Of a stretch of DNA of 43,259 nucleotides, positions 1 through 43,259 are shown piece after piece. Positions within the stretch are counted from its first letter, which is position 1; every line of letters begins with the position of its first letter. The notes below the pieces were generated by a model. It was not told the DNA's origin. It searched no databases and saw only the letters and a program-made list of their open reading frames with translations. The stretch spans positions 1 to 43,259 of the IMG/VR virus record IMGVR_UViG_3300042934_000257; one strand, written 5' to 3'. The stretch is from a virus. The translations under genes were made by a program, and so were the position numbers.

Positions 1-71
1 TCGTTATCCGGGTAGCGCTCGTCGAATGCCCATGCCTCTGCGACATCTTCGGCAGTCCACGGCTCGCTCAT
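1..71 (-). CDS. Acidic phage protein of unknown function, 3' end cut by window edge
   Basis: These are the first 23 codons of the gene seen complete at 39789-40037. All bases present here are identical to that copy. The start ATG at 71 overlaps the TGA of the upstream 202-residue gene in an ATGA junction. The product begins MSEPWTAEDVAEAW and is acidic. No function is recognised. Confidence 0.75.
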   Translation of the reverse strand, partial: MSEPWTAEDVAEAWAFDERYPDN

Positions 72-676
72 GCTTCCCTCTCCGTCATTTCTTCGACCAA
101 CTCTTCCACAGCGTCAGCCCCAACCCATTCGGCGTCGCACGATTCGACACGACACACAGCCCGAACACTCCGGTACGGGTCTGCGTGGTCGTACAACACG
201 GCAACAGGGGATGCGCGTTGGGTGTCGTCAGGTCCGGACCAGTTGACGGCTTTGCACACGGGGCATGCGCCGGCGAGCGGGACCGTCTTCGGCGGGTCCA
301 ACAGGTCGGTGATCGTCGCAGCCCAACCCCTGAGCGTGCGCGTGTAGAAGTCTGCTTCGATGTTGCGGCCAATGAACCCCGCATACCAACGCCGCAAACT
401 CACCACAGCGTCACCACGGTCATGTCGCGCGTCAACCAGGCGGCACCAATCACCAATCTGCGACTTGATAATCAACAACTGCTGCAACGCCGCATCATTG
501 ATCACAGAACCCGTAGCAGAACCACCACCACCACCGTTGCCGATAGCGCTAGTTACAGCATCCTCGAGCTGACGGAGTAGCGGGTCATGGTGGACGACTG
601 TTACCGTGTCGCCTTGGATGACTTTCGATCGTGTCGGTTTCGTCAGAGCATCAACAGCGTCCAACAGGTCAGTCAC
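68..676 (-). CDS. Conserved actinophage-type protein of unknown function (202 aa, allele A copy)
   Basis: The product has an N-terminal helical part, a short glycine linker at about residues 50-56 (GGGGGS), a tryptophan-rich middle, and a C-terminal pair of cysteine motifs (CPVC near 143 and CRVESC near 182) that could bind zinc. The allele B copy at 40034-40642 is nearly identical and starts with ATG. Here the start is GTG at 676, overlapping the upstream stop as GTGA, with a G-rich SD just before it. Longer readings starting at 688 would overlap the upstream gene more and are not needed. From memory such proteins are common in actinophage early operons; function is unknown. Confidence 0.8.
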   Translation of the reverse strand: MTDLLDAVDALTKPTRSKVIQGDTVTVVHHDPLLRQLEDAVTSAIGNGGGGGSATGSVINDAALQQLLIIKSQIGDWCRLVDARHDRGDAVVSLRRWYAGFIGRNIEADFYTRTLRGWAATITDLLDPPKTVPLAGACPVCKAVNWSGPDDTQRASPVAVLYDHADPYRSVRAVCRVESCDAEWVGADAVEELVEEMTEREA

Positions 677-837
677 TTCGCCCCCCACTCGACGCCGTCA
701 ACGTAGACGCGGACAAGCTTCTTCTTCTCCGTCACGTAAACCTCGATGCTCCGCCCTGCAACCGGGAAGTGGTAGGTCGTTCCGCGTCCCGGCCATACTG
801 CGTACCCGATCTGATCCGGGCCTTCGTACTCACTCAT
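673..837 (-). CDS. Small hypothetical protein, allele A specific (54 aa)
   Basis: Start ATG at 837 overlaps the stop of the 43-residue gene (ATGA). The product begins MSEYEGPDQIGYAVW and is rich in beta-type residues with a basic KKK patch in the middle. At the same position allele B carries an unrelated 77-residue gene (40639-40872), so this slot is a cassette exchanged between the alleles. No family is recognised. Confidence 0.65.
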   Translation of the reverse strand: MSEYEGPDQIGYAVWPGRGTTYHFPVAGRSIEVYVTEKKKLVRVYVDGVEWGAK

Positions 838-965
838 TCGGCTTCCTTCACTTCCCACGGGTGACCGAGCACCCGAACAATCGACTCACACCACGAACGA
901 CCACCAGGAGCCGTAAACACACGCCCCGTGTCAGGACGCCACACCACCCACAGTTGTTCGGTCAT
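834..965 (-). CDS. Small hypothetical protein conserved in both alleles (43 aa)
   Basis: The product starts MTEQLWVVWRPDTGRV and ends EVKEAE. The allele B copy at 40869-41000 is almost identical. Start ATG at 965 lies just downstream, in the minus sense, of a strong UUCG hairpin at 986-1013, so that hairpin is its 5' leader. The stop is coupled to the next gene by ATGA. Function unknown. Confidence 0.65.
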   Translation of the reverse strand: MTEQLWVVWRPDTGRVFTAPGGRSWCESIVRVLGHPWEVKEAE

Positions 966-985
966 CAGCTCCCACAGACGCAGTA

Positions 986-1013
986 GGGCCGCACTCCCGA
1001 AGGAGTACGGCCC
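986..1013 (-). promoter_or_regulatory. Leader RNA hairpin, 12-bp stem with UUCG loop (allele A)
   Basis: On the minus strand twelve pairs close a C(UUCG)G tetraloop. All positions pair if one G-U wobble is allowed. On the plus strand the same position would be a C-A mismatch. No U-tract follows, so it is not a canonical terminator. It sits between the 1041-1262 gene and the 834-965 gene and is conserved in allele B at 41021-41048 with the wobble at a different pair. Confidence 0.75.
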
Positions 1014-1040
1014 GGTAACGGATACGGTCAGATCAGGTAG

Positions 1041-1262
1041 TCACGAGTCACTGTCGGCCTTCTTGACTGGCCGGCCACGCTTGACGTCTCGGACGGTGAG
1101 CGGCCGAATCGGGAACAAGTCGCCCCGCACGCAGTAGATGTTCTCCTTCTCGTGGTCACCGTTCAAGACCTTGTCGAGAGCTTCCTCGCGGGTGGAGGCG
1201 TTCACGGTGTAGAAGTGCACTGTGCGAAAAGCCTCGGCAACCTCGAACTCGTATTCAGTCAC
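1041..1262 (-). CDS. Small hypothetical protein, allele A only (73 aa)
   Basis: GTG start at 1262 is preceded by GGGAGG six bases upstream, a strong SD. The product, starting with residues TEYEFEVAEAFRTVHFY after the initiator, looks like a small alpha/beta fold with a basic C-terminal stretch (VKRGRPVKK). Allele B has no counterpart; there the SSB-like gene is followed directly by the UUCG hairpin. Function unknown. Confidence 0.6.
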   Translation of the reverse strand: MTEYEFEVAEAFRTVHFYTVNASTREEALDKVLNGDHEKENIYCVRGDLFPIRPLTVRDVKRGRPVKKADSDS

Positions 1263-1273
1263 GAGAACCCTCC

Positions 1274-1594
1274 CTAAAACGGTGTCTCATCCGCAGTGTT
1301 CCACACCGGTCCAGCATCAACCACAGGGGCCACACCGACCGCCTCGAGCACCTTCGCCTGGTTCAACGTGTGATCCACGAACCGCGCATCACGCTCGCTG
1401 ACCCGTGTGCCCAGAAACCCGGACACCTTGATGCGGTCGCCCTCGTTCACCGTCCGGTCTGCGTCCTTCGGCGGGAACACCGACCAATACGTCACACGCT
1501 CCTTGCCGTTGTACTCCTGAGCTTCACGCAGCCCCCAACCATTCCCGCGGGAATTGATGCGGCTTACAGTGCCTTCAACAGTTACATACGCCAT
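1274..1594 (-). CDS. SSB-like OB-fold protein (106 aa, allele A copy)
   Basis: The protein reads VEGTVSRINSRGNGWGL, then TYWSVFPPKDADRTVNEGDRI, then KVSGFLGTRV. This is a short beta-barrel pattern with GDRIKVSG-type strands typical of OB-fold single-strand-binding proteins. It lies two to three genes after the replication initiator, which supports a replication role. The allele B copy (41063-41377) matches closely over the first 83 residues and diverges in the C-terminal tail. ATG at 1594 overlaps the upstream TAA (TAATG). The OB-fold call is inference from pattern. Confidence 0.55.
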   Translation of the reverse strand: MAYVTVEGTVSRINSRGNGWGLREAQEYNGKERVTYWSVFPPKDADRTVNEGDRIKVSGFLGTRVSERDARFVDHTLNQAKVLEAVGVAPVVDAGPVWNTADETPF

Positions 1595-1788
1595 TACGCT
1601 GTCTCTTCCTTCTTCAACATCCCTCTGATGAGGGCCAACTTGTTATCAGTCACCCGGTCATAACGGGCAGCAAGAGCCGCCTGAATCGTTTGGATCGGGC
1701 GTTCACGTTGCACCTTGAACGGTTTTCTCGTGGCGAGAAACACGGCGAAGTCGACGTCTGATTGGGTCATGTGGTCGTCATCCGTCAT
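1594..1788 (-). CDS. Small hypothetical protein (64 aa), allele A
   Basis: The product starts MTDDDHMTQSDVDFAVFLATRK and is a charged, helical protein. At the same position allele B has an unrelated 68-residue protein (41377-41583). The ATG at 1788 follows the previous stop by three bases; an internal ATG at 1770 is an alternative start. Both alleles place this gene immediately before the SSB-like gene. Function unknown. Confidence 0.6.
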   Translation of the reverse strand: MTDDDHMTQSDVDFAVFLATRKPFKVQRERPIQTIQAALAARYDRVTDNKLALIRGMLKKEETA

Positions 1789-1791
1789 GGG

Positions 1792-2028
1792 TCATCTCGT
1801 CTTGTACGCCCGCCAACCGATGCCCCGAGGCACATCCGGTGCCTCCGTGACATACAGGTCAAGCCGGAAGCCGCGCTCGTCAAGGTCGCGGATATGCACC
1901 TGGTCATCGCCGCTGGGATCGGTCAGCCAACACGAGACCGAGGGGACCTTCTCGAACGGGGACGAGAACTCGACCACCAAGTAGTCCTCAAACTTGGTCG
2001 TCGTGACCGTCGTCTGCGTGATGTTCAT
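1792..2028 (-). CDS. Small hypothetical protein (78 aa), allele A only
   Basis: ATG at 2028 overlaps the preceding stop as ATGA. The product begins MNITQTTVTTTKFEDYLVVEF, looks beta-rich, and contains the acidic patch DPSGDDQVHIRDLDERG. Nothing comparable is present in allele B. Function unknown. Confidence 0.6.
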   Translation of the reverse strand: MNITQTTVTTTKFEDYLVVEFSSPFEKVPSVSCWLTDPSGDDQVHIRDLDERGFRLDLYVTEAPDVPRGIGWRAYKTR

Positions 2029-2291
2029 TCGTCGCCCTCCTCATCGAACTCGAACGTGTAGCCAGCGATGACCTCGCGGAGAATGCGGGCCACGGCATGC
2101 TCGGGCGCGGGCTCTTCGAAAATGATCCGCAGAACTCCGACGAGTTCGTTCGCGTCGAAGTCATCGACACGGCCGTCCGACTGCCGCGCGGCCAACCAGC
2201 CCTCGACCAGCGACTTCGCGATATTCGCTTCCCGCCTGCGGTCGGTCCATGTCTCCACCACTGCTGCGAACGGGACAACCTCGATAGCCAT
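2025..2291 (-). CDS. Small acidic hypothetical protein (88 aa), allele A only
   Basis: ATG at 2291 shares its first base with the stop of the replication initiator (TGATG). The product is helical and ends in a strongly acidic tail (EFDEEGDE). Its position directly after the initiator is the slot often used by helicase-loader or initiator partners, but no motif supports that. Function unknown. Confidence 0.6.
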   Translation of the reverse strand: MAIEVVPFAAVVETWTDRRREANIAKSLVEGWLAARQSDGRVDDFDANELVGVLRIIFEEPAPEHAVARILREVIAGYTFEFDEEGDE

Positions 2292-3097
2292 CAGAACTCA
2301 CTTCCCATTGATTCGATACGTTCTTGCGTGCACCGCCGACACTCCTGGAGCGACCAATGCACACTCGGATTACCAATCGGATAGCCCGCATGCACCGGGC
2401 ACTCCCGCTCCTCGCCCTTGCGCGGCGGAACGGGAACAGACGACTTCACCCCAGTCGGGATCGCATCATCAAGCCAACGACCATCCCGCAACCACCCAGC
2501 AGGCAACTTGAGAAACTGTTTCTCCCGCCCAGCGTTCAACAGCAGATACGCGCGCAGCCCCGTCAGCAGCGTTTCAAGGTCGACCGTCTTCCGGGCCGTC
2601 TTGAAAGCCTTGAGGGCGTCGAGCTTCGCTTGCTTGCGCGGGTACAGTGACCACCACTCAGAGAACTCATCATCGATTGAACGAATGTCTTTATCTTCTA
2701 GATGGTGTTCCTGTTGAATAGTGTTCTTAGTGTCGGATTCACCGCTGTCGGTTGAACCGCTGTCGGTAAATCCGCCGCTGTCGGGAAATCCGTCACCCGT
2801 CGTGGGGTCGGTCAGCTCGTACTCGACCTCATTCCACCGGCCCTTGTCGCCCCGAGATTGCAGCAACCGCAGGTAGCCGGCGTCCTTCAACTCGTTCAAA
2901 GCAGACCGGATCGCATCGCGACCCTCAGTTCCAGCCTTCTGCAACGACCCGATGGTGATATGCCAACCCACGCGGTGCGTCATAATCTCAGCCAGGAGAC
3001 CCCGCGCCCGACGCGACAACCGCTCATCCCGCAACCACTCGTTCGGGATCTGAACAAACCTGCCCTCGAAGTCAAGTTTCGCCCTGCGGACACCCAT
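2291..3097 (-). CDS. Replication initiator / replisome organizer, winged-helix type (allele A, 268 aa)
   Basis: Residues 1-90 look like a winged helix (GRFVQIPNEWLRDERLS..., ITIGSLQKAGTEGRDAIRSALNEL, wing near GRWNEVEYEL). A DSG-rich linker at about 105-125 is followed by a conserved domain (EWWSLYPRKQAKLDALKAF ... QFLKLPAGWLRDGRW) and a short cysteine-containing tail. The initiator at 41741-42538 shares this second domain but has a different N-terminus. The linker DNA carries iteron-like repeats, as in lambda O. ATG 3097 overlaps a 12-codon leader cistron. Initiator role is inferred from architecture and position; helicase recruitment by the C-terminal half is likely. Confidence 0.7.
   Translation of the reverse strand: MGVRRAKLDFEGRFVQIPNEWLRDERLSRRARGLLAEIMTHRVGWHITIGSLQKAGTEGRDAIRSALNELKDAGYLRLLQSRGDKGRWNEVEYELTDPTTGDGFPDSGGFTDSGSTDSGESDTKNTIQQEHHLEDKDIRSIDDEFSEWWSLYPRKQAKLDALKAFKTARKTVDLETLLTGLRAYLLLNAGREKQFLKLPAGWLRDGRWLDDAIPTGVKSSVPVPPRKGEERECPVHAGYPIGNPSVHWSLQECRRCTQERIESMGSEF
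2686..2784. other. Putative replication origin A: iterons plus AT-rich flank
   Basis: TGTCGG recurs at 2731, 2746, 2761 and 2779. Three of the copies are part of the longer repeat CCGCTGTCGG (2742-2751, 2757-2766, 2775-2784). Immediately beside them, 2686-2730 is clearly AT-richer than the surrounding sequence. This repeat-plus-unwinding-element layout inside an initiator gene matches the lambda ori arrangement. The repeats also encode a DSG-rich linker, so a purely protein-level explanation remains possible. Confidence 0.5.
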
Positions 3098-3135
3098 CAG
3101 TCGTTCCGCTCGAAGTGCAAATCAGATACACTCAT
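3097..3135 (-). CDS. 12-codon leader cistron before the initiator gene
   Basis: The reading frame MSVSDLHFERND starts at ATG 3135, eight bases after a clean AAGGAG, and its TGA overlaps the ATG of the 268-residue initiator (TGATG). The initiator ATG has no good SD of its own, so its translation is probably coupled to this minicistron. Translation is suggested by the ribosome site only. Confidence 0.5.
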   Translation of the reverse strand: MSVSDLHFERND

Positions 3136-3176
3136 AGTGCTTGCTCCTTAGCCCTAGACAGTGACGGAGCGGGCCA

Positions 3177-3215
3177 TAACCCCGGACAGTTTCCAGCTGT
3201 CGCGGGGCTTTTCTC
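3177..3215 (+). terminator. Hairpin with plus-strand U-tract in the leader of the initiator gene
   Basis: The arms CCCCGGACAG (3180-3189) and CTGTCGCGGGG (3197-3207), with one bulged G, are followed on the plus strand by CTTTTCT. As a terminator it would stop antisense (plus) transcription; on the minus strand it forms a structured 5' leader about 45 bases after the -10. A similarly built hairpin lies at 36155-36187. Confidence 0.5.
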
Positions 3216-3234
3216 TGCCCTCTCGCACCCATCA

Positions 3235-3285
3235 GTCTAGCAGAAACGTGCGAATTATAGCGGCGGTCAGGCCGTTTACACCCGC
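3235..3285 (-). promoter_or_regulatory. Promoter for the allele A replication genes
   Basis: A perfect minus-strand TATAAT is read from 3254-3259. No strong TTGACA stands 16-18 bases upstream; the best candidate is a weak GGTGTA. The stretch between the initiator leader and the 3315 gene has no reading frame worth calling. Allele B lacks this region entirely: its initiator starts four bases after the preceding stop. Confidence 0.5.
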
Positions 3286-3314
3286 ACGTATGTTCGAACG
3301 TCGTGCACACCCGC

Positions 3315-3434
3315 TCACCTCCATATCGCTTCGTATTCCTTCGACTCGATCACGCACGCCGCACAAAACACGCGGTCGTCAGGTGTGCGCGAATCGCACA
3401 GCGGGCACAGGTCAGAACGGGACGGACTGTTCAT
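3315..3434 (-). CDS. Zinc-ribbon microprotein (39 aa, allele A)
   Basis: The product contains CPLC and CAAC pairs separated by about 13 residues, a classic small treble-clef or ribbon arrangement. ATG 3434 has a strong GGGAGG seven bases upstream. Its 5' end overlaps the HNH stop by 23 bp. The allele B homologue (42543-42659) is recognisable, with CPCC and CAAC pairs and the same ending, EYE followed by LWR or AIWR. Possible nucleic-acid-binding accessory factor; function unknown. Confidence 0.65.
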   Translation of the reverse strand: MNSPSRSDLCPLCDSRTPDDRVFCAACVIESKEYEAIWR

Positions 3435-3783
3435 CGGTTCGCCTCCCATCCCTCGTCAGAAACCACACGTCACCGTTCGGGTACTCAACCGCTGTGTTCT
3501 GGCATCGCCGCACCGTCTCCTGATTCGTCGCAGCCTTCCGAACCCTCACCCCACGGCGGACAAGCTCAGCGCGATCCCACCGCGACGTGTCTTCCTTCCA
3601 CCCGTTGCAGAGTCCACATGCGGCGATCAGGTTCCGCGGGTCAATGAGGATCTTCGATCCGCCGAACCCGCCGTTGGCTCTGTGATCCGCAACGGTCGCC
3701 TCACCCAGACACGCGGGGCCGGCGATGACACACCAGCCGTCGTCACGCTCGAGCACGAGGGTGACGAGCTTCTTCGGGATCAT
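3412..3783 (-). CDS. HNH endonuclease (123 aa, allele A)
   Basis: The motifs VLERDDGWCVI, then ADHRANGGFGGSKILIDPRNLIAACGLCNGWKED, fit the HNH fold (H near 34, N near 52, C-x2-C pairing at the end). Such small HNH nucleases in phages act in homing or in DNA processing. ATG 3783 overlaps the previous stop (ATGA). Allele B has a distantly similar nuclease of the same length at 42643-43014, so the two are alternative occupants of one slot. Confidence 0.7.
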   Translation of the reverse strand: MIPKKLVTLVLERDDGWCVIAGPACLGEATVADHRANGGFGGSKILIDPRNLIAACGLCNGWKEDTSRWDRAELVRRGVRVRKAATNQETVRRCQNTAVEYPNGDVWFLTRDGRRTDEQSVPF

Positions 3784-4364
3784 GCGGGAACCTGCCAGGT
3801 CAGATGCTTGACGATGCGAGAGACGTTCGACTGACTGGTTCCGAACTCTGCGGCGAGACGCCGACCGGTCCAGCCCTCCTCGTACATCTCGCGGATCGCG
3901 TAGACGTCGCACCAGGTGAGGCTTGCGGACGGGTTCACGTCGCCCTTGAGCGACCTGCCCCGTTCGACCTTGTCGCGTGAGTTGTCGGCGGGCGTACCGA
4001 TCTCGAGATGATCCGGATTCACGCACGGCGGGTTGTCGCACTTATGGCGAACCACCATGCCCTCCGGGATGTCACCGTGGTTCATCTCGTAGGCGACCCT
4101 GCTGGCGGTCATGTTGTGACCGTCTAGCCAGAACTGCCCGTAGCCGGCCTTGTTTCGGTGGCCCGTCCACTCGAGGCAACCCCGCTCGGTAGGTACTGCG
4201 GGGACGCGTGCAGCGAACCGTTCGGGCCATGGCTGGCGGATCGGCACGCGCTCAATCAGATCGGTGGTGCCGTACCGCCATTCCCGCTGGTGGTGCATCT
4301 TGCAGAGGCCCCGGCCGTAGTGAGCCTTAGCGCACCCATCTATAGTGCAAAGCTTCTCGGTCAC
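3780..4364 (-). CDS. HNH homing-type endonuclease with N-terminal zinc motif and C-terminal HTH (194 aa)
   Basis: The N-terminus has C-x5-C and C-x2-H spacing (CTIDGCAKAHYGRGLCKMHH). The middle is an HNH_3-type core (GCLEWTGHRNKAGYGQF, VAYEMNHGDIPEGMVVRHKCDNPPCVNPDHLEIGT). The C-terminus resembles a resolvase-like HTH (GWTGRRLAAEFGTSQSNVSRIV). The GTG start overlaps the stop of a truncated HNH gene (GTGA). This gene is absent from allele B and its junction cuts that other HNH gene, which suggests invasion. Confidence 0.75.
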   Translation of the reverse strand: MTEKLCTIDGCAKAHYGRGLCKMHHQREWRYGTTDLIERVPIRQPWPERFAARVPAVPTERGCLEWTGHRNKAGYGQFWLDGHNMTASRVAYEMNHGDIPEGMVVRHKCDNPPCVNPDHLEIGTPADNSRDKVERGRSLKGDVNPSASLTWCDVYAIREMYEEGWTGRRLAAEFGTSQSNVSRIVKHLTWQVPA

Positions 4365-4444
4365 AGTTCCCCCTCACCGCAACGGACACAACAACCCCGG
4401 TCACGAGACCACACCAGGTCGAACGTTGACGGCGTGACGGTCAC
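4361..4444 (-). pseudogene. Truncated remnant of an HNH endonuclease (27 codons)
   Basis: The frame VTVTPSTFDLVWSRDRGCC matches the first residues of the intact allele B HNH at 42643-43014, then ends after about 27 codons in a short unrelated tail (GEGEL, stop). Homology to allele B stops at about 4377, exactly where the 194-residue HNH gene begins. It therefore looks like the stub left by a recombination or invasion event. GTG 4444 overlaps the previous stop. Confidence 0.7.
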
Positions 4445-4605
4445 AGGTCCACCAGCGAGTCGGGGCAGCGCACGTTGTGGCCGCCACCGTTCCCCGTGCG
4501 AACGTGCACCATTCCGTGCGCGACCTTCGGCCCGCCGCATCGGATGCACATGTCATGCTCCGCGAGATACGGGAACATCAGTACCCAAGTTTCCCGGTCG
4601 ATCAT
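4441..4605 (-). CDS. Small zinc-ribbon-like protein (54 aa, allele A copy)
   Basis: The protein begins MIDRETWVLMFPYLAEHDMC and contains CIRCGGPK with a later C. The copy at 43011-43181 is near-identical except for the last residues. Tandem ATG codons occur at 4608 and 4605; the second sits seven bases after GGAGG and is preferred. Its stop region overlaps the HNH start. Function unknown. Confidence 0.65.
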   Translation of the reverse strand: MIDRETWVLMFPYLAEHDMCIRCGGPKVAHGMVHVRTGNGGGHNVRCPDSLVDL

Positions 4606-5255
4606 CATGCTGCCTCCTTTTTGGCGGCTTGTGTGAAGAGTGATGCGATGTCTGACCGGTTGTGTCGCCATGCGAACCGTTCGAGGTTGTCTGGTGTTTT
4701 GTTGAGTGCGCGGGCGATTTGGTTTGCTGATTCGCCGAGGCTCAACAGGTGGTCGATTTCGTGCATGAGGTCGTCGCCTTTGAGGATGCGGTCGCGTTCG
4801 GTGGTGACGGGTGACGCGTTCGGGTCGTCGATTTGGTCGTCGTCCCACGCGAACGGGGACACGTAACCCTTCGCTTTCGACTGCCTCGCCGTGCGCGGTG
4901 ATGCGCCGGCTGTGGGGGTTCGCAACAGGGCCTTGTGTGCGGCGGTGATGCGGTCGCGGGTGCGCGCCTCGACGGTGTCTTCGTTGAGGACACGCCACAC
5001 GGTGTTGCGGTTGAACCCTGCTGCTGCGCCGATTTGATCGAACGTGAACCCGAGCACCTGTAGCCCCTGGATGCGACGCTGTGTGCCGATTGCGGGGATG
5101 AGCCCCTCCCACCTTCCGTACGCTTTGAGGCGTCGACGCTGGCGGGTGCGGGTGCTGTTTCCGGTGCGGCATGGGGTGCAACGGCATTTGCCGATGTCAT
5201 AGCAGTTCGCCCCGCCGTGCTTGTGCGTGTGGTTGAGGTTGCACAGTTGCGTCAT
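4605..5255 (-). CDS. Actinophage HTH DNA-binding protein (216 aa)
   Basis: An N-terminal cysteine/histidine cluster (CNLNHTHKHGG, CRCTPCR) is followed by basic residues, a helix-turn-helix (FTFDQIGAAAGFNRNTVWRVL near 75-95), the motif GYVSPFAWDDDQIDDPNA near 130-147, and a second helical HTH-like segment (ESANQIARALNKTPDNLERFA). From memory, AWDDD-IDDP proteins are widespread in actinophages as DNA-binding proteins of unknown target. ATG 5255 overlaps the HNH stop. By eye the base usage of this gene differs from its neighbours: its plus strand is unusually G/T-rich. Confidence 0.65.
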   Translation of the reverse strand: MTQLCNLNHTHKHGGANCYDIGKCRCTPCRTGNSTRTRQRRRLKAYGRWEGLIPAIGTQRRIQGLQVLGFTFDQIGAAAGFNRNTVWRVLNEDTVEARTRDRITAAHKALLRTPTAGASPRTARQSKAKGYVSPFAWDDDQIDDPNASPVTTERDRILKGDDLMHEIDHLLSLGESANQIARALNKTPDNLERFAWRHNRSDIASLFTQAAKKEAA

Positions 5256-9010: not shown

Positions 9011-9192
9011 GACGACTCCCCCATTGCGACCATCAGCGCCGCTTCCGCACCCTTGACCTGTTCACGCCACTTCACAACTTCGGCTTGTGCTTTGAGCGCT
9101 TCGCCTGCGTGGTAGTCGTGGTTTTGTTTCGCCCACAACAGTTCGGTTGCCTTGTAGTCGAGGTCTTCCCGAAGCTCCTCAATGGTCTTCAT
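9007..9192 (-). CDS. Small helical coiled-coil-like protein (61 aa)
   Basis: The protein MKTIEELREDLDYKATELLW is almost wholly helical with regular charged heptads (EALKAQAEVVKWREQVKGAEAAL). Start choice is among TTG 9201, GTG 9195 and ATG 9192; ATG 9192 is taken. It lies partly inside the HNH gene's 3' end. Function unknown. Confidence 0.55.
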   Translation of the reverse strand: MKTIEELREDLDYKATELLWAKQNHDYHAGEALKAQAEVVKWREQVKGAEAALMVAMGESS

Positions 9193-9655
9193 CACGTTCA
9201 AGTTCCCTATCGAGTTCGTTGTGGGTAAAGAGGCGCAGGCGGAGAAGCCTCGCTGCCTCTGCCGCCTCTTCGACCGTGGAGTGCTCGCCTGCTTGGTACT
9301 TCTCGCCGTTATGGCCGACCTGGGCCCTCCACATGTTGGTGAAGGGGTTCCACGTCACTCCGCGAGCGCCGGACGTGTTGTTCCGAGCAGCCCCCCGGTT
9401 CTCTTGGTTCTGCTTGACTGTCACCGCCCGCAGATGGTCCGGGTTCACGCAGGCCCTGTTGCGACAGATGTGGTCGACCTGCATTGCGCCCAATTCCCCT
9501 ATCGCTAAGCGGTAGGCGACGCGGTGCGCCACGGTCATCTGCCCGTCCAAGTAGAAGTGCCCGTATCCGTCACGGTTGCGACTCGCTGTCCATTCCCAAC
9601 ACCCGTCGGCCTTCGCGACCTTCTCCCAAAAGCGGGTCTCAAGCGTCCTCGTCAT
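9179..9655 (-). CDS. HNH endonuclease with AP2-like DNA-binding domain (158 aa)
   Basis: The HNH_3 core (CWEWTASRNRDGYGHF, AHRVAYRLAIGELGAMQVDHICRNRACVNPDHLRAVT) is followed by the AP2-like segment NTSGARGVTWNPFTNMWRAQVGHNGEKYQAGEHST. This is the standard build of phage homing endonucleases. The gene at 35564-36127 is a close relative. The start at ATG 9655 overlaps the upstream gene by 17 bp. Confidence 0.85.
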   Translation of the reverse strand: MTRTLETRFWEKVAKADGCWEWTASRNRDGYGHFYLDGQMTVAHRVAYRLAIGELGAMQVDHICRNRACVNPDHLRAVTVKQNQENRGAARNNTSGARGVTWNPFTNMWRAQVGHNGEKYQAGEHSTVEEAAEAARLLRLRLFTHNELDRELERDEDH

Positions 9656-35563: not shown

Positions 35564-36127
35564 CTACCCTTCGACGTTGTGCGTGTAGAGCTTCGACCGC
35601 ATCGCGCTAGCCGCGCCGGCTGCTTCATCGACAGTCGCGTAGTACCCGCAGTGATATTGGCGTCCGTTGTGCCTCACCTGAGCCAACCAAGTACTACTGC
35701 GCTTGTCCCATGTGACACCGCGCGCCCCGGACGTGTTGTCCTTGCGCAGCCCCACGTTCTCCAAGTTCTGCTTGTTAGTCGCGAGTCGCAGATGTTCGGG
35801 GTTCACGCAGCTCGTGTTCCGGCAAATGTGGTCGATGAACAGGCCCTCGGGGATCTCGCCGTTCGCGATCTCGTAGGCGACACGGTGCGCGGGGCGGACC
35901 TTCCCGCGCCATCCGAAGCTGCCGTAGCCTCGATGGTTCGTCGCACCGGTCCACTTCCAGCAACCGTCGCGCTTTTCAACCTTGTCCCAGAATCGCTCTT
36001 CCGGGGTGGGTTCGTACCGGCCGTCGAAGCTTCCGTAGCGCCGCAGGCGGTAGTAGTGGGGGCGGCAGTGCTGGCGGTTGATCGTCTCGGTGTAGCAACC
36101 AGGGACGATGCAGGTAGACTTGTTCAC
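35564..36127 (-). CDS. HNH endonuclease with AP2-like domain and N-terminal zinc motif (187 aa)
   Basis: The order is CIVPGCYTETINRQHCRPHYYR (zinc), then CWKWTGATNHRGYGSFGW ... VAYEIANGEIPEGLFIDHICRNTSCVNPEHLRLAT (HNH_3), then NTSGARGVTWDKRSSTWLAQVRHNGRQYHCGYYATV (AP2). It is close to the 9179-9655 protein over the last two parts. GTG 36127 follows GAGGAG by six bases. Probable homing endonuclease. Confidence 0.85.
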   Translation of the reverse strand: MNKSTCIVPGCYTETINRQHCRPHYYRLRRYGSFDGRYEPTPEERFWDKVEKRDGCWKWTGATNHRGYGSFGWRGKVRPAHRVAYEIANGEIPEGLFIDHICRNTSCVNPEHLRLATNKQNLENVGLRKDNTSGARGVTWDKRSSTWLAQVRHNGRQYHCGYYATVDEAAGAASAMRSKLYTHNVEG

Positions 36128-39796: not shown

Positions 39797-40037
39797 GTTC
39801 GCCCCACTCTCGGTACGGATTGGGGATACATGGCTCATCGAATGTCGCGTGATTCTCCATTACGTCGCGTTCGCCTTCGTCGAAACCTTCATCCCATGCT
39901 TCGGCTCTGACGCCACGTTCGTAGGTGGCGAGCCAGGTGAGGAATTCCTGGCGTGCGCCGGGCCTCTCGTTATCCGGGTAGCGCTCGTCGAATGCCCATG
40001 CCTCTGCGACATCTTCGGCAGTCCACGGCTCGCTCAT
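39789..40037 (-). CDS. Acidic hypothetical protein (82 aa)
   Basis: MSEPWTAEDVAEAWAFDERY, then EEGERDVMENHATFDEPCIP-like acidic stretches (EGFDEGERDVMENHATF). It is present intact here and as a cut copy at 1-71. ATG 40037 overlaps the 202-residue gene's stop (ATGA). Function unknown. Confidence 0.65.
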   Translation of the reverse strand: MSEPWTAEDVAEAWAFDERYPDNERPGARQEFLTWLATYERGVRAEAWDEGFDEGERDVMENHATFDEPCIPNPYREWGERG

Positions 40038-40642
40038 GCTTCCCTCTCCGTCATTTCTTCGACCAACTCTTCCACAGCGTCCGCCCCAACCCATTCGGCG
40101 TCGCACGATTCGACACGACACACAGCCCTAACACTCCTGTACGGGTCTGCGTGGTCGTACAACACTGCGACAGGGGATGCGCGTTGGGTGTCGTCAGTTC
40201 CGGACCAGTTGACTGCTTTGCACACAGGGCATGCGCCGGCCAACGGGACAGTCTTCGGCGGGTCCAACAGGTCCGTGATCGTCGCCGCCCAACCCCGCAA
40301 CGCTCTGGTGTAGTAGTCGGCTTCGATGTTGCGGCCAATGAACCCCGCATACCAACGCCGCAAACTCACAACCGAATCACTGCGGTCATGTTTCGCGTCA
40401 ACCAGGCGGCACCAATCACCAATCTGCGACTTGATAATCAACAACTGCTGCAACGCCGCATCATTGATCACAGAACCCGTAGCAGACCCACCACCACCAC
40501 CGTTGCCGATAGCGCTAGTGACAGCATCCTCGAGCTGACGCAACAGGGGGTCATGGTTGACGACTGTCACGACGTCGCCTTGGATGACTTTCGATCGTGT
40601 CGGTTTCGTCAGAGCATCAACAGCGTCCAACAGGTCAGTCAT
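40034..40642 (-). CDS. Conserved actinophage-type protein (202 aa, allele B copy)
   Basis: Nearly identical to the product of 68-676, with the same poly-Gly linker and cysteine pairs; a few conservative changes (for example R to K near residue 90). ATG 40642 overlaps the previous stop (ATGA), which confirms the GTG chosen for the allele A copy. Confidence 0.8.
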   Translation of the reverse strand: MTDLLDAVDALTKPTRSKVIQGDVVTVVNHDPLLRQLEDAVTSAIGNGGGGGSATGSVINDAALQQLLIIKSQIGDWCRLVDAKHDRSDSVVSLRRWYAGFIGRNIEADYYTRALRGWAATITDLLDPPKTVPLAGACPVCKAVNWSGTDDTQRASPVAVLYDHADPYRSVRAVCRVESCDAEWVGADAVEELVEEMTEREA

Positions 40643-40872
40643 TCGGCTTCCTCCATGCGCTTGCGGAGTTCTTCGATGTCGAGTTCGTCACCGTCGCTCA
40701 CGCCGATACGTGCGGCGTCGGCCGGGCTGAGGAACAGTCGGCGTCGCTCACCGCGCATCATCGTCATGTACGCCTCACCCGTTTCGGCGAGACCCGTAAC
40801 GCAGATGAGCGGCGGCTTCTCCATCTCTGCGAGACCCTCGATCGCGCGCCTGACCTCTTCGAGCATGCTCAT
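40639..40872 (-). CDS. Small hypothetical protein, allele B specific (77 aa)
   Basis: MSMLEEVRRAIEGLAEMEKP, then RGERRRLFLSPADAARIGVSDGDELDIEELRKRM. The second half resembles an AbrB/MazE-like or GyrI-type surface (SPADAARIGVSDGDEL), only a hint. It replaces the unrelated 54-residue gene of allele A. ATGA overlaps on both sides. Confidence 0.6.
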   Translation of the reverse strand: MSMLEEVRRAIEGLAEMEKPPLICVTGLAETGEAYMTMMRGERRRLFLSPADAARIGVSDGDELDIEELRKRMEEAE

Positions 40873-41000
40873 TCGGCTTCCTTCACTTCCCACGGCTCCC
40901 CCAAAACACGGACAATCGACTCACACCACGAACGACCACCAGGAGCCGTAAACACACGACCCGTGTCAGGACGCCACACCACCCACAGTTGTTCGGTCAT
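40869..41000 (-). CDS. Small hypothetical protein (43 aa, allele B copy)
   Basis: Near-identical to 834-965, including the leader hairpin. ATG 41000 is the start; the open frame further upstream runs through the hairpin. Function unknown. Confidence 0.65.
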   Translation of the reverse strand: MTEQLWVVWRPDTGRVFTAPGGRSWCESIVRVLGEPWEVKEAE

Positions 41001-41020
41001 CAGCTCCCACAGACGCAGTA

Positions 41021-41048
41021 GGGCCGTACCCCCGAAGGAGTACGGCCC
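41021..41048 (-). promoter_or_regulatory. Leader RNA hairpin with UUCG loop (allele B)
   Basis: Same 12-bp stem and loop as 986-1013. Here the single G-U wobble lies near the loop instead of mid-stem, so all pairs hold on the minus strand in both alleles. Confidence 0.75.
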
Positions 41049-41062
41049 GGTAACGGATACGG

Positions 41063-41377
41063 TCAGAAAGGCGTGGACGAATCCCACTGAGGCTCAGCCT
41101 GCGCAGACACCACAGCCGCAGCAGTCTCGAGCACCTTCGCCTGGTTCAACGTGTGATCCACAAACCGCGCATCACGCTCGCTGACCCGCGTGCCAAGGAA
41201 CCCGGAAATCTTCACCCGATCCCCCTCGTTCACCGTCCGGTCTGCGTCCTTCGGCGGGAACACCGACCAATACGTCACACGCTCCTTGTCCCCAAACGAA
41301 TTGACCTCCTTGAGACCGAACCCGTTGCCGCGCGAATTGATCCGCGAAACCGTACCCTCAACAACTACCTGTGCCAC
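41063..41377 (-). CDS. SSB-like OB-fold protein (104 aa, allele B copy)
   Basis: Shares VEGTVSRINSRGNG, TYWSVFPPKDADRTVNEGDR and SGFLGTRVSERDARFVDHTL with 1274-1594, then diverges. ATG 41377 overlaps the upstream stop (TGATG). Probable single-strand binding in replication; fold inferred. Confidence 0.55.
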   Translation of the reverse strand: MAQVVVEGTVSRINSRGNGFGLKEVNSFGDKERVTYWSVFPPKDADRTVNEGDRVKISGFLGTRVSERDARFVDHTLNQAKVLETAAAVVSAQAEPQWDSSTPF

Positions 41378-41583
41378 TAGCTGGCCTTCCTTTCCATTCG
41401 ACTATCGATGAACGCGCGAAGCTGTTCCGTCTCCGCGTCATAACGTCTAAGCCACGACTGCGCGGGCGTCTCCAAGTGCCGGTTGCGTGACAACCAACGG
41501 TTCGACGTGCCCATCCGAAACCGCCACTGCACACGGTCGATGAACGCGGTGAAGTCATCCTCAGGATCTGACTTGTCGCTCAT
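41377..41583 (-). CDS. Small hypothetical protein, allele B (68 aa)
   Basis: MSDKSDPEDDFTAFIDRVQW, then FRMGTSNRWLSRNRHLETPA: acidic start, basic helical remainder. AAGGGA precedes ATG 41583. It occupies the position of the unrelated 64-residue gene of allele A. Function unknown. Confidence 0.6.
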   Translation of the reverse strand: MSDKSDPEDDFTAFIDRVQWRFRMGTSNRWLSRNRHLETPAQSWLRRYDAETEQLRAFIDSRMERKAS

Positions 41584-41741
41584 GTCGGTTCCCTTTCTGA
41601 ACACTCAGCACACCAACGACATTCGGGATCTCGCGAGAAGTTCGCATGCTGTGTGGTCTGCCCCGGCGAATGCCAGCCGCACGACGCACACCACGAACCG
41701 CCGTAATAAACGTGCTCCGTCTCACCACATTCAGGACACAT
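41580..41741 (-). CDS. Cysteine-rich zinc protein, allele B only (53 aa)
   Basis: CPEC, CASC and CRWCAEC make a double zinc-ribbon arrangement in 53 residues. ATG 41741 overlaps the initiator stop (TGATG). Likely nucleic-acid binding; function unknown. Confidence 0.65.
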   Translation of the reverse strand: MCPECGETEHVYYGGSWCASCGWHSPGQTTQHANFSRDPECRWCAECSEREPT

Positions 41742-42538
41742 CAGTACGGCCTCTCTTCGCACCTGAGACACGGCAACGGATAACCCAAATGGTCGGCACA
41801 CATCGCACCCTCAGCACCCAACGCAGGCGCAGGAGGCGGACCAGACCTGGACGTCGAGTAGTCGTCCTCCCACTTGCGGTCGTTCAACCACCCAGCCGGC
41901 AACTTCACGAACTGCTTCTCCTTGCCGAGACACATGAGCGTGTACGCCTGAGTGGCCTTCGCCAACGTGTCCGGGTCGACGAGCTTCCGCGCCTTCTCCC
42001 AAGCCCTCAGCGCAGCACCCTTCGATTCCTTCCGCGGGTACAGCAACCACCACTCTTCGAAAGCCTTCGGGTAGCCCGATTGGACTACTCTCTTCTCTTT
42101 AACTGGTCGGGTCGGGTCGGGTCGGGTCGGGGTGTTGTCCACCACCGTCGCACTCCGGTCAGGTCCCATTGGGACAGGCTCGGGACTTTCCCCCTTAGTT
42201 CCGCCCTTCCTCGCCCGGTACGCCTCCTTCCGCCTGCGTTCACTCTCACGAGTCGCAACCACATCACGCTTCATCGGCTGGTACTCTTCCCAGTCGTTGA
42301 ACCGGTAATCGTCGCCGTCCCGCACCCACAGCCCGGAGTCCGCGAGCATGTCCCCGTGGGACAGATTCGCGCCCAACTCCTCGAGCATGTACGCCGGCAC
42401 TCTGCCGTCAGTGAGGTGCCTTGCACACCACGCGCCAGAGCTGACCCACAGCCCCAGACACTCCAAGCGCTGTGCGCGCGGGATAGACAGCACTTTGGGG
42501 TTCGTCATGAACCCGTCATCGACCTTGAACCAGGTCAC
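41741..42538 (-). CDS. Replication initiator / replisome organizer, alternative N-terminus (allele B, 265 aa)
   Basis: Residues 1-95 (TWFKVDDGFMTNPKVLSIPRAQRL ... YRFNDWEEYQPMKRDV) match phage replisome-organizer N-termini. A basic, proline-rich linker (TPTRPDPTRP) is followed by the same second domain as in allele A (FEEWWLLYPRKESKGAALRAW ... KQFVKLPAGWLNDRKW) and a cysteine tail. GTG 42538 has GGAGG upstream. It should bind origin repeats and recruit helicase. Confidence 0.75.
   Translation of the reverse strand: MTWFKVDDGFMTNPKVLSIPRAQRLECLGLWVSSGAWCARHLTDGRVPAYMLEELGANLSHGDMLADSGLWVRDGDDYRFNDWEEYQPMKRDVVATRESERRRKEAYRARKGGTKGESPEPVPMGPDRSATVVDNTPTRPDPTRPVKEKRVVQSGYPKAFEEWWLLYPRKESKGAALRAWEKARKLVDPDTLAKATQAYTLMCLGKEKQFVKLPAGWLNDRKWEDDYSTSRSGPPPAPALGAEGAMCADHLGYPLPCLRCEERPY
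42105..42132 (+). repeat. Putative origin B: five GGTCG tandem repeats
   Basis: GGTCG is repeated five times without spacer, followed by GGGG, giving five G-runs on the plus strand and thus a quadruplex motif. It lies in the linker-coding part of the initiator gene, the same relative place as the allele A iterons, next to a pyrimidine-rich TCTCTTCTCTTTAA segment. Origin role is inferred. Confidence 0.5.
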
Positions 42539-42542
42539 CCGC

Positions 42543-42659
42543 TCACCTCCATAGTTGTTCGTACTCGGCTGCTTCGACCGTGCAGGCGGCGCAGAAGACT
42601 TGATCGTCTGGTGTTGCCCGTTGCGTGCAGCAAGGGCACAGGTCAGAACGGGTGGTCAT
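42543..42659 (-). CDS. Zinc-ribbon microprotein (38 aa, allele B)
   Basis: MTTRSDLCPCCTQRATPDDQ, then VFCAACTVEAAEYEQLWR: homologue of 3315-3434. It overlaps the HNH stop by 17 bp and ends four bases before the initiator GTG, with GGAGG inside its last codons serving that start. Confidence 0.65.
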   Translation of the reverse strand: MTTRSDLCPCCTQRATPDDQVFCAACTVEAAEYEQLWR

Positions 42660-43014
42660 TGTTCGTCCAGCCCCCTAGGTCATCAAGGATCACCAGCCCG
42701 TGTATTGAGTGGTGTATGGGTACTTCGACGGGTTTGCGTTGCCCGTTCGCGGACACCAGGAACCCGGAAGCTCGAGCGAAGGCGCGGTGTGATTCGCAGT
42801 AGCCGTGACAGCCGGTCGTTCCCGACCCGCATAGCAGGATCAGGTTTCCGGGCTTATCCACCCACGGAAGCTTCGAACCCCCCATGCTCCGGGGTCGGCG
42901 GTGATGCACAGACCACGACAAGCCACGCGCACCCACAAGAGCGGCACCGCAACGGACACAACAACCCCGGTCACGCGACCACACCAGGTCGAACGTTGCT
43001 GGCGTGACTGTCAC
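42643..43014 (-). CDS. HNH endonuclease (123 aa, allele B)
   Basis: The frame TFDLVWSRDRGCCVRCGAAL, then SWSVHHRRPRSMGGSKLPWVDKPGNLILLCGSGTTGCHGYCESH, gives a complete HNH core with C-x2-C. The first 20 or so residues match the truncated copy at 4361-4444. GTG 43014 overlaps the upstream stop (GTGA). Confidence 0.8.
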   Translation of the reverse strand: MTVTPATFDLVWSRDRGCCVRCGAALVGARGLSWSVHHRRPRSMGGSKLPWVDKPGNLILLCGSGTTGCHGYCESHRAFARASGFLVSANGQRKPVEVPIHHSIHGLVILDDLGGWTNNDHPF

Positions 43015-43181
43015 GGGTCCACCCGCGAATCGCTTTCGGGGCAGCGCACGTTGTGACCGCCACCGTTCCCCGTGCGAACGTGCACCATTCCGTGCGCGAC
43101 CTTCGGCCCGCCGCATCGGATGCACATGTCATGCTCCGCGAGATACGGAAACATCAGTACCCAAGTTTCCCGGTCGATCAT
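43011..43181 (-). CDS. Small zinc-ribbon-like protein (56 aa, allele B copy)
   Basis: Same as 4441-4605 up to the final residues, where a short insertion changes the tail (PESDSRVDP instead of PDSLVDL). ATG 43181 is preferred over 43184 for SD spacing from GGAGG. Confidence 0.65.
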   Translation of the reverse strand: MIDRETWVLMFPYLAEHDMCIRCGGPKVAHGMVHVRTGNGGGHNVRCPESDSRVDP

Positions 43182-43259
43182 CATGCTGCCTCCTTTTTGG
43201 CGGCTTGTGTGAAGAGTGATGCGATGTCTGACCGGTTGTGTCGCCATGCGAACCGTTCG
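43181..43259 (-). CDS. C-terminal fragment of the HTH DNA-binding protein, cut by window end
   Basis: The last 25 codons (ERFAWRHNRSDIASLFTQ ... KKEAA) are identical to the end of the 4605-5255 gene. The rest lies beyond the window or, if the assembly is a loop, is the same gene at 4605-5255. Confidence 0.75.
   Translation of the reverse strand, partial: ERFAWRHNRSDIASLFTQAAKKEAA

Follow-up and report, generated by a model that had tools for sequence, protein, structure and literature searches.

Why does a single phage record carry two replication initiators that share their C-terminal part and differ in the rest, and what was exchanged between them? The window analysed here is the entire IMG/VR virus record IMGVR_UViG_3300042934_000257, a stretch of 43,259 bases. 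An initial annotation placed initiators at 2291-3097 and 41741-42538. It took them for two loci of one genome, between which recombination had swapped the N-terminal module while the C-terminal half was kept. We found both open reading frames there, on the minus strand, and refer to them as initiators A and B (Table 1).

Table 1. Coordinates of the two arms of the window, the initiators with their parts, and the neighbouring genes.
Feature	Position	Strand	Details
Left arm, allele A	1..4683		Exact match to right arm over 1-115 and 4574-4683
DUF7341 protein, A arm, shared flank	68..688	-	
SSB-like OB-fold protein, allele A	1274..1594	-	Weak PF01336 match, E 0.02; holds left breakpoint
Initiator A, 268 aa	2291..3097	-	phrog_270, replication initiation protein, E 1.6e-33
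A C-terminal module (EWW-LYPRK ... LPAGWL)	2453..2683	-	
A AT-rich stretch by iterons, putative unwinding element	2670..2731	-	65% AT over 60 bp
A putative in-gene iterons	2728..2792	-	CCGCTGTCGGTAAATCCG copies 2742-2759, 2757-2774, 2775-2792; partial ~2728-2744
A N-terminal helix-turn-helix module	2798..3097	-	HTH_36 E 4e-4, below Pfam cut-off
HNH endonuclease, allele A cassette	3412..4041	-	phrog_740, E 2.6e-13
Second HNH-type ORF, allele A cassette	3780..4364	-	Overlaps the 3412..4041 ORF; tblastn match to Footloose HNH genes
HNH gene remnant in allele A	4376..4549	-	First 60 codons of B's HNH gene, 92% identical, truncated at right breakpoint
Right arm, allele B	39967..43259		Up to final contig base; exact over 39967-40081 and 43150-43259
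DUF7341 protein, B arm	40034..40642	-	96% identical to A-arm copy
SSB-like protein, allele B	41063..41377	-	73% identical to allele A; breakpoint 41288/41289
Initiator B, 265 aa	41741..42538	-	phrog_2447, replication initiation protein, E 2.6e-39
B C-terminal module (EWW-LYPRK ... LPAGWL)	41843..42073	-	
B AT-richer stretch past array	42076..42105	-	57% AT over 30 bp; top 1.7% of windows, modest
B (CCCGA)5 pentamer array	42105..42131	-	C-rich coding strand; perfect tandem repeat
B putative iteron-like sites	42160..42190	-	GTCCC x2, GGGAC x1; p 0.99 alone, not significant
B N-terminal module (MTWFKVDD...)	42215..42538	-	Model pLDDT >90, winged-helix order of elements
HNH endonuclease, allele B	42643..43125	-	phrog_740, E 1.9e-26

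Initiators A and B differ in N-terminal family and share a C-terminal module

The sole part of the two proteins that aligned was the C-terminal module (45% identity over 114 aa, E 4e-27; hhalign of the C-terminal halves, 99.5%), as the initial annotation had it. The N-terminal halves were indeed unrelated: that of A falls in phrog_270 and that of B in phrog_2447, and the hhalign probability between the two profiles was 1.5%. The phrog_270 match covers residues 7-219 of A, which takes in N- and C-terminal parts. In B, the phrog_2447 match covers residues 1-153, and phrog_9474, annotated as a replication initiation protein, matches residues 1-245 (E 1.7e-26). The C-terminal half of each initiator also matches the PHROG family of the other.

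The AlphaFold model of the A N-terminal half, which is of moderate confidence, has a winged-helix-like order of elements (helix-strand-helix-two strands). Whole-protein fold searches with A and B against solved structures (PDB) returned weak winged-helix-like matches, none of them confident. The models are consistent with a DNA-binding fold for both N-terminal halves, which may have a general fold in common though not a family.

We observed that the C-terminal module pairs with many N-terminal kinds, and that most B-type N-terminal halves pair with other C-terminal parts. Among C-terminal relatives, the closest that we found to A (L212, 61%) carries a B-like N-terminal half, and the closest that we found to B (L213, 56%) carries a third N-terminal kind. 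Judging by these pairings, domain shuffling among these initiators is old, common and widespread. In L012, two B-type N-terminal domains lie next to each other (623-943 and 1073-1384), possibly as a duplicated or split initiator.

The contig ends overlap at the initiator locus

A and B sit in mutually overlapping ends of one contig and are probably not two loci of one genome. Positions 1-4683 are homologous to 39967-43259, and this homology spans from the contig's first base to its last. Of the exact runs in the overlap, the longest (115 bp) forms its left edge and the next (110 bp) its right edge; the longest internal run is 93 bp. Longest exact matches at both edges are expected of an assembler that circles a genome and enters a strain bubble via both arms, and are unexpected for two biological copies. 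The genes for TerL, portal, tape measure and integrase are present in one copy each, all beyond the overlap.

The complete Microbacterium phage Footloose has a single initiator, with an exonuclease/RusA/resolvase/WhiB/HNH group on one side and an SSB gene, a DUF7341-like gene and an MRE11-like exonuclease on the other. This gene order was recovered in the window solely on joining the contig ends. The order in Pontimonas phage phiPsal1 agrees for WhiB, the initiator and the MRE11-like gene. All named phage records that matched A had one match each (170/170), as did all those that matched B (374/374). Because complete relatives hold one initiator in this locus, the best reading, which we infer from gene order and exact matches, is that a single initiator locus is represented by two alleles, A and B, which stem from two strains and were joined during assembly. 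Phage kin suggest that the hosts are actinobacteria.

Genuine headful terminal redundancy was rejected as an account of the overlap: homologous stretches of the ends share 93-96% identity, and the middle is replaced outright. The record is classed as linear, yet it probably comprises a full circle plus a diverged overlap, with base and gene counts inflated by ~3.3 kb. We found no near-identical record with either allele alone (megablast against phages; DUF7341 protein against viral contigs). A search with TerL against viral contigs returned a 90% relative, L083, which holds late genes only and so shows neither allele; TerL had no match among genome contigs.

The breakpoints of the exchange lie outside the initiator gene

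The left breakpoint is at 1505/1506 (41288/41289 in the B arm), within the SSB-like gene, where identity drops from 93% to background. The right breakpoint is at 4374/4375 (42944/42945 in the B arm), upstream of the HNH genes, where identity is back to 95%. Everything between them differs, small genes and HNH genes included, and neither breakpoint is within rep. The C-terminal DNA of A and B is 63% identical (third codon positions, 53%) vs 94% in the flanks. Because of this difference and the lack of a breakpoint in rep, the comparison indicates that the recent event in this lineage is a replacement of the whole cassette (2.9 kb vs 1.7 kb), not of the N-terminal half. The proposal that an N-terminal module was swapped onto a kept C-terminal half was thus not borne out; the closest C-terminal relatives found for A and B are L212 and L213, not each other.

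The flanking genes had been described as nearly identical. This was correct for the DUF7341 proteins (96%) and the outer flank DNA (94-96%), but not for the SSB-like proteins (73%), the HNH proteins (33% over 86 aa) or several small genes in between, which are unrelated. Near-identical flanks suggest that the exchange in the phage lineage was fairly recent, and the HNH stub kept in strain A points to a B-like ancestor of that strain.

Smaller differences were also seen in the arms. A small segment at 681-832 / 40646-40867 is replaced or inserted, with differing small ORFs (673-858 and 40639-40893). Another, at 1068-1342, is replaced or inserted with a 73-aa ORF (1041-1262) present in arm A only. 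The phage has at least five HNH genes; two of these, at 9179-9655 and 35564-36127, share 76.5% DNA identity over 132 bp (9347-9477, 35705-35835).

The linkers carry repeats that look like in-gene origins

The linkers between the two protein halves differ in their repeats, as the initial annotation had noted: copies of CCGCTGTCGGTAAATCCG in A vs (GGTCG)5.4 in B. The A repeats have an 18-bp unit in three full copies and one partial copy, and the A linker contains the AT-richest 60 bp of the whole window (window mean 39% AT). In B, the template strand of the array holds a G-quadruplex motif at 42109-42126, and the GTCCC core of the putative sites recurs at the equivalent position in Footloose and L034. 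A TAAGAACA-like word stands just past the repeats, at 2690-2735 of the window and in the linkers of L020, L034 and L295. It is found in A-type and B-type genes and encodes Lys-Asn in every frame checked, so that its recurrence may have a DNA-level or a protein-level cause.

We scored in-gene repeats at a TRF score of at least 40, with codon-shuffled linkers of the same composition as controls. Repeats were present in 7/8 A-type genes, 80/87 B-type genes and 50/70 other genes with the shared C-terminal module; the corresponding values for codon shuffles were 0.1, 4.0 and 1.9. The best repeat periods were often not multiples of three (5, 10, 11, 16 and 22 nt were common), which argues against a protein-level cause. 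A six-base word was over-represented in the linker in 44/74 B-type genes (P < 0.05). The GTCCC sites of B in this window were not significant alone (P = 0.99).

We also mapped repeat classes, grouped by hand, onto the N-terminal tree, which has few columns and weak support. Repeat class required 23 changes against a shuffled mean of 26.9 (4/500 shuffles as low), and the two main repeat classes required 4 changes vs 7.5 when shuffled (7/500). This supports, without proving, that repeat class tracks the N-terminal tree beyond chance. An initiator gene with direct repeats lying between the parts for the two protein halves is an arrangement of the lambda O / SPP1 gp38 type, and the linker repeats of A and B look like putative in-gene origins. 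The suggestion that origin specificity was exchanged along with the protein is supported in so far as the linkers have the look of matching origins.

Many B-type genes carry a pentamer array, some with a hairpin

We defined an array as at least two CCCGA/CCCGT units plus CC. Arrays were found on the coding strand of 55/74 different B-type genes, and in none of the A-type genes (0/8) or genes of other N-terminal types (0/70); the 1.15 Mb of DNA flanking the B-type genes had 4. Their start frames in B-type genes were distributed as 28, 16 and 11, with 1 reverse-strand case. A coding repeat was rejected as the explanation of the array because all three reading frames are used. Isolated phages with the array are Schmidt, Dardanus, Footloose and GMA1, and MrSmee has a CCCATCCCATCCC variant of it.

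Directly past the array, mean GC over B-type genes drops from 0.78 to 0.51. A perfect stem of at least 8 bp was present within 60 bases past the array in 17/53 genes, compared to 0.8% of codon shuffles and 2% of other windows in the same genes. The hairpin is perfect, with an 8-11 bp stem and a TAAC- or TAGC-like loop.

In an unbiased scan of viral contigs for arrays of at least five units, 49/84 lay no more than 900 bp from a B-type N-terminal domain (4 of the 49 in antisense frame). The remaining 35/84 are scattered and not beside a B-type initiator, and the idea that the array is specific to origins everywhere was rejected. L147, L157 and L122 have two or three CCCGW arrays off any B-type initiator. 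The arrays of L147 and L157 adjoin other ORFs, and some such contigs may be mis-classed cellular DNA.

In the open-access literature, we found no phage paper with the array sequence in a phage origin or with the array peptide. The oriented (CCCGA/T)n array, with its template-strand G-quadruplex motif and in many cases a perfect hairpin behind it, could be an undescribed origin element inside the gene of one winged-helix-like initiator family, perhaps a strand-specific landing or priming site. We offer this tentatively, as a proposal that is less likely than not.

Discussion

Taken together, our data make it probable that the window holds the circular or permuted genome of a temperate ~40 kb actinobacteriophage plus the same locus of a second strain, that the alleles differ by cassette replacement, and that each rep carries its own origin. 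The assembly would have run once round the genome and then onward into the locus of the co-occurring strain. Strain A would descend from a B-like ancestor in which the initiator, the HNH genes and a part of the SSB-like gene were replaced.

The origin would sit in the linker, which joins the DNA-binding N-terminal module to the C-terminal one. In this model, the N-terminal module would bind the short linker repeats, and the adjoining AT-rich DNA would melt. The C-terminal module, a type that many phages use, may then recruit the helicase machinery; this role toward the helicase is proposed by analogy. Our guess for the pentamer array and hairpin is that, once the DNA is open, they offer primase or helicase a structured single strand at which to enter. 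Next to the initiators of the window we identified neither a helicase nor a loader gene; in the relatives Morgana, Dardanus and MrSmee, helicase genes neighbour the initiator. With its target inside the gene, a replaced initiator gene would keep protein and origin matched, and this match would explain a one-step replacement between unrelated N-terminal halves.

Other explanations were weighed. One molecule might truly hold both loci, as tandem related prophages or as a mixed-infection concatemer of an A and then a B unit. The integrase in the window makes tandem prophages possible, and the spacing of the units, ~40 kb, is one genome length. A true tandem, however, would not bound the homology at the contig ends inside the two longest exact matches, and no named phage record has two matches to either initiator. 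We regard this arrangement as unlikely. A recent swap of the N-terminal origin-binding half alone would account for unrelated N-terminal halves on shared C-terminal halves. It is very improbable given that one breakpoint falls within the SSB-like gene, the other upstream of the HNH genes and none in rep, that the C-terminal DNA is so much less similar than the flanks, and that the nearest C-terminal relatives found are other proteins.

The repeats might also lack any origin function and be a byproduct of low-complexity, proline-/serine-rich linkers. Linkers of two-domain proteins are often repetitive, and the B array encodes PTRPDPTRP. However, such repeats hardly ever arise when the linkers are codon-shuffled at constant composition, the common periods are those listed above, and the CCCGW array occurs in three frames and near-exclusively on the coding strand. 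We therefore give a byproduct little credence, and prefer two alleles exchanged as whole cassettes, each with a putative origin in its initiator gene.

If this is true, many phages, often of actinobacteria, would switch replication specificity by a single recombination step. Origin specificity, incompatibility and replication-targeted defence would be predictable from one gene, and initiators with matching origins would be at hand for use in high-GC actinobacteria. The pentamer array is a concrete candidate for a new origin element. A caution also follows for viral metagenomics: where a locus seems to be present twice, once at either end of a viral contig, the cause can be a strain bubble.

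Comparison with known systems

Lambda O is an initiator with an in-gene origin between the protein halves, in which 18-bp iterons lie by an AT-rich stretch (PMC3349717, PMC7466680). Initiator A is similar in that its 18-bp repeats adjoin the AT-richest 60 bp of the window. It differs in its N-terminal half, which matches O-like families weakly (phrog_678, E 3e-4; phrog_345, E 0.01). Further differences from lambda are a C-terminal module without a Pfam family, the lack of any P-like loader among the genes found, and the pentamer array added in B-type genes.

SPP1 gp38 binds oriL repeats inside gene 38, where direct repeats are accompanied by an AT-rich unwinding element (PMC6316719). Direct repeats within the initiator gene are also what we observed here, with an AT-rich stretch that is clear in A and modest in B, a likeness in layout. 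SPP1 has its own loader (gp39) and helicase (gp40), whereas none were identified by the initiators of the window.

In a lambda-P22 hybrid, O-P is replaced by P22 18-12 (PMC3349717). The exchange described here resembles such lambdoid mosaicism in that whole replication cassettes are exchanged between otherwise similar phages. Unlike the lambdoid hybrids, the two alleles occur in one metagenomic actinobacteriophage assembly, with HNH genes at one breakpoint. The modular build of these initiators is already present in public families (PHROG 270, 2447 and 9474), whose descriptions mention neither in-gene origins nor the pentamer array. Overall, replication-cassette replacement is a known kind of event, and lambda and SPP1 already provide examples of an in-gene origin; what is new is the broad spread of in-gene repeats over this initiator group, together with the pentamer-hairpin element.
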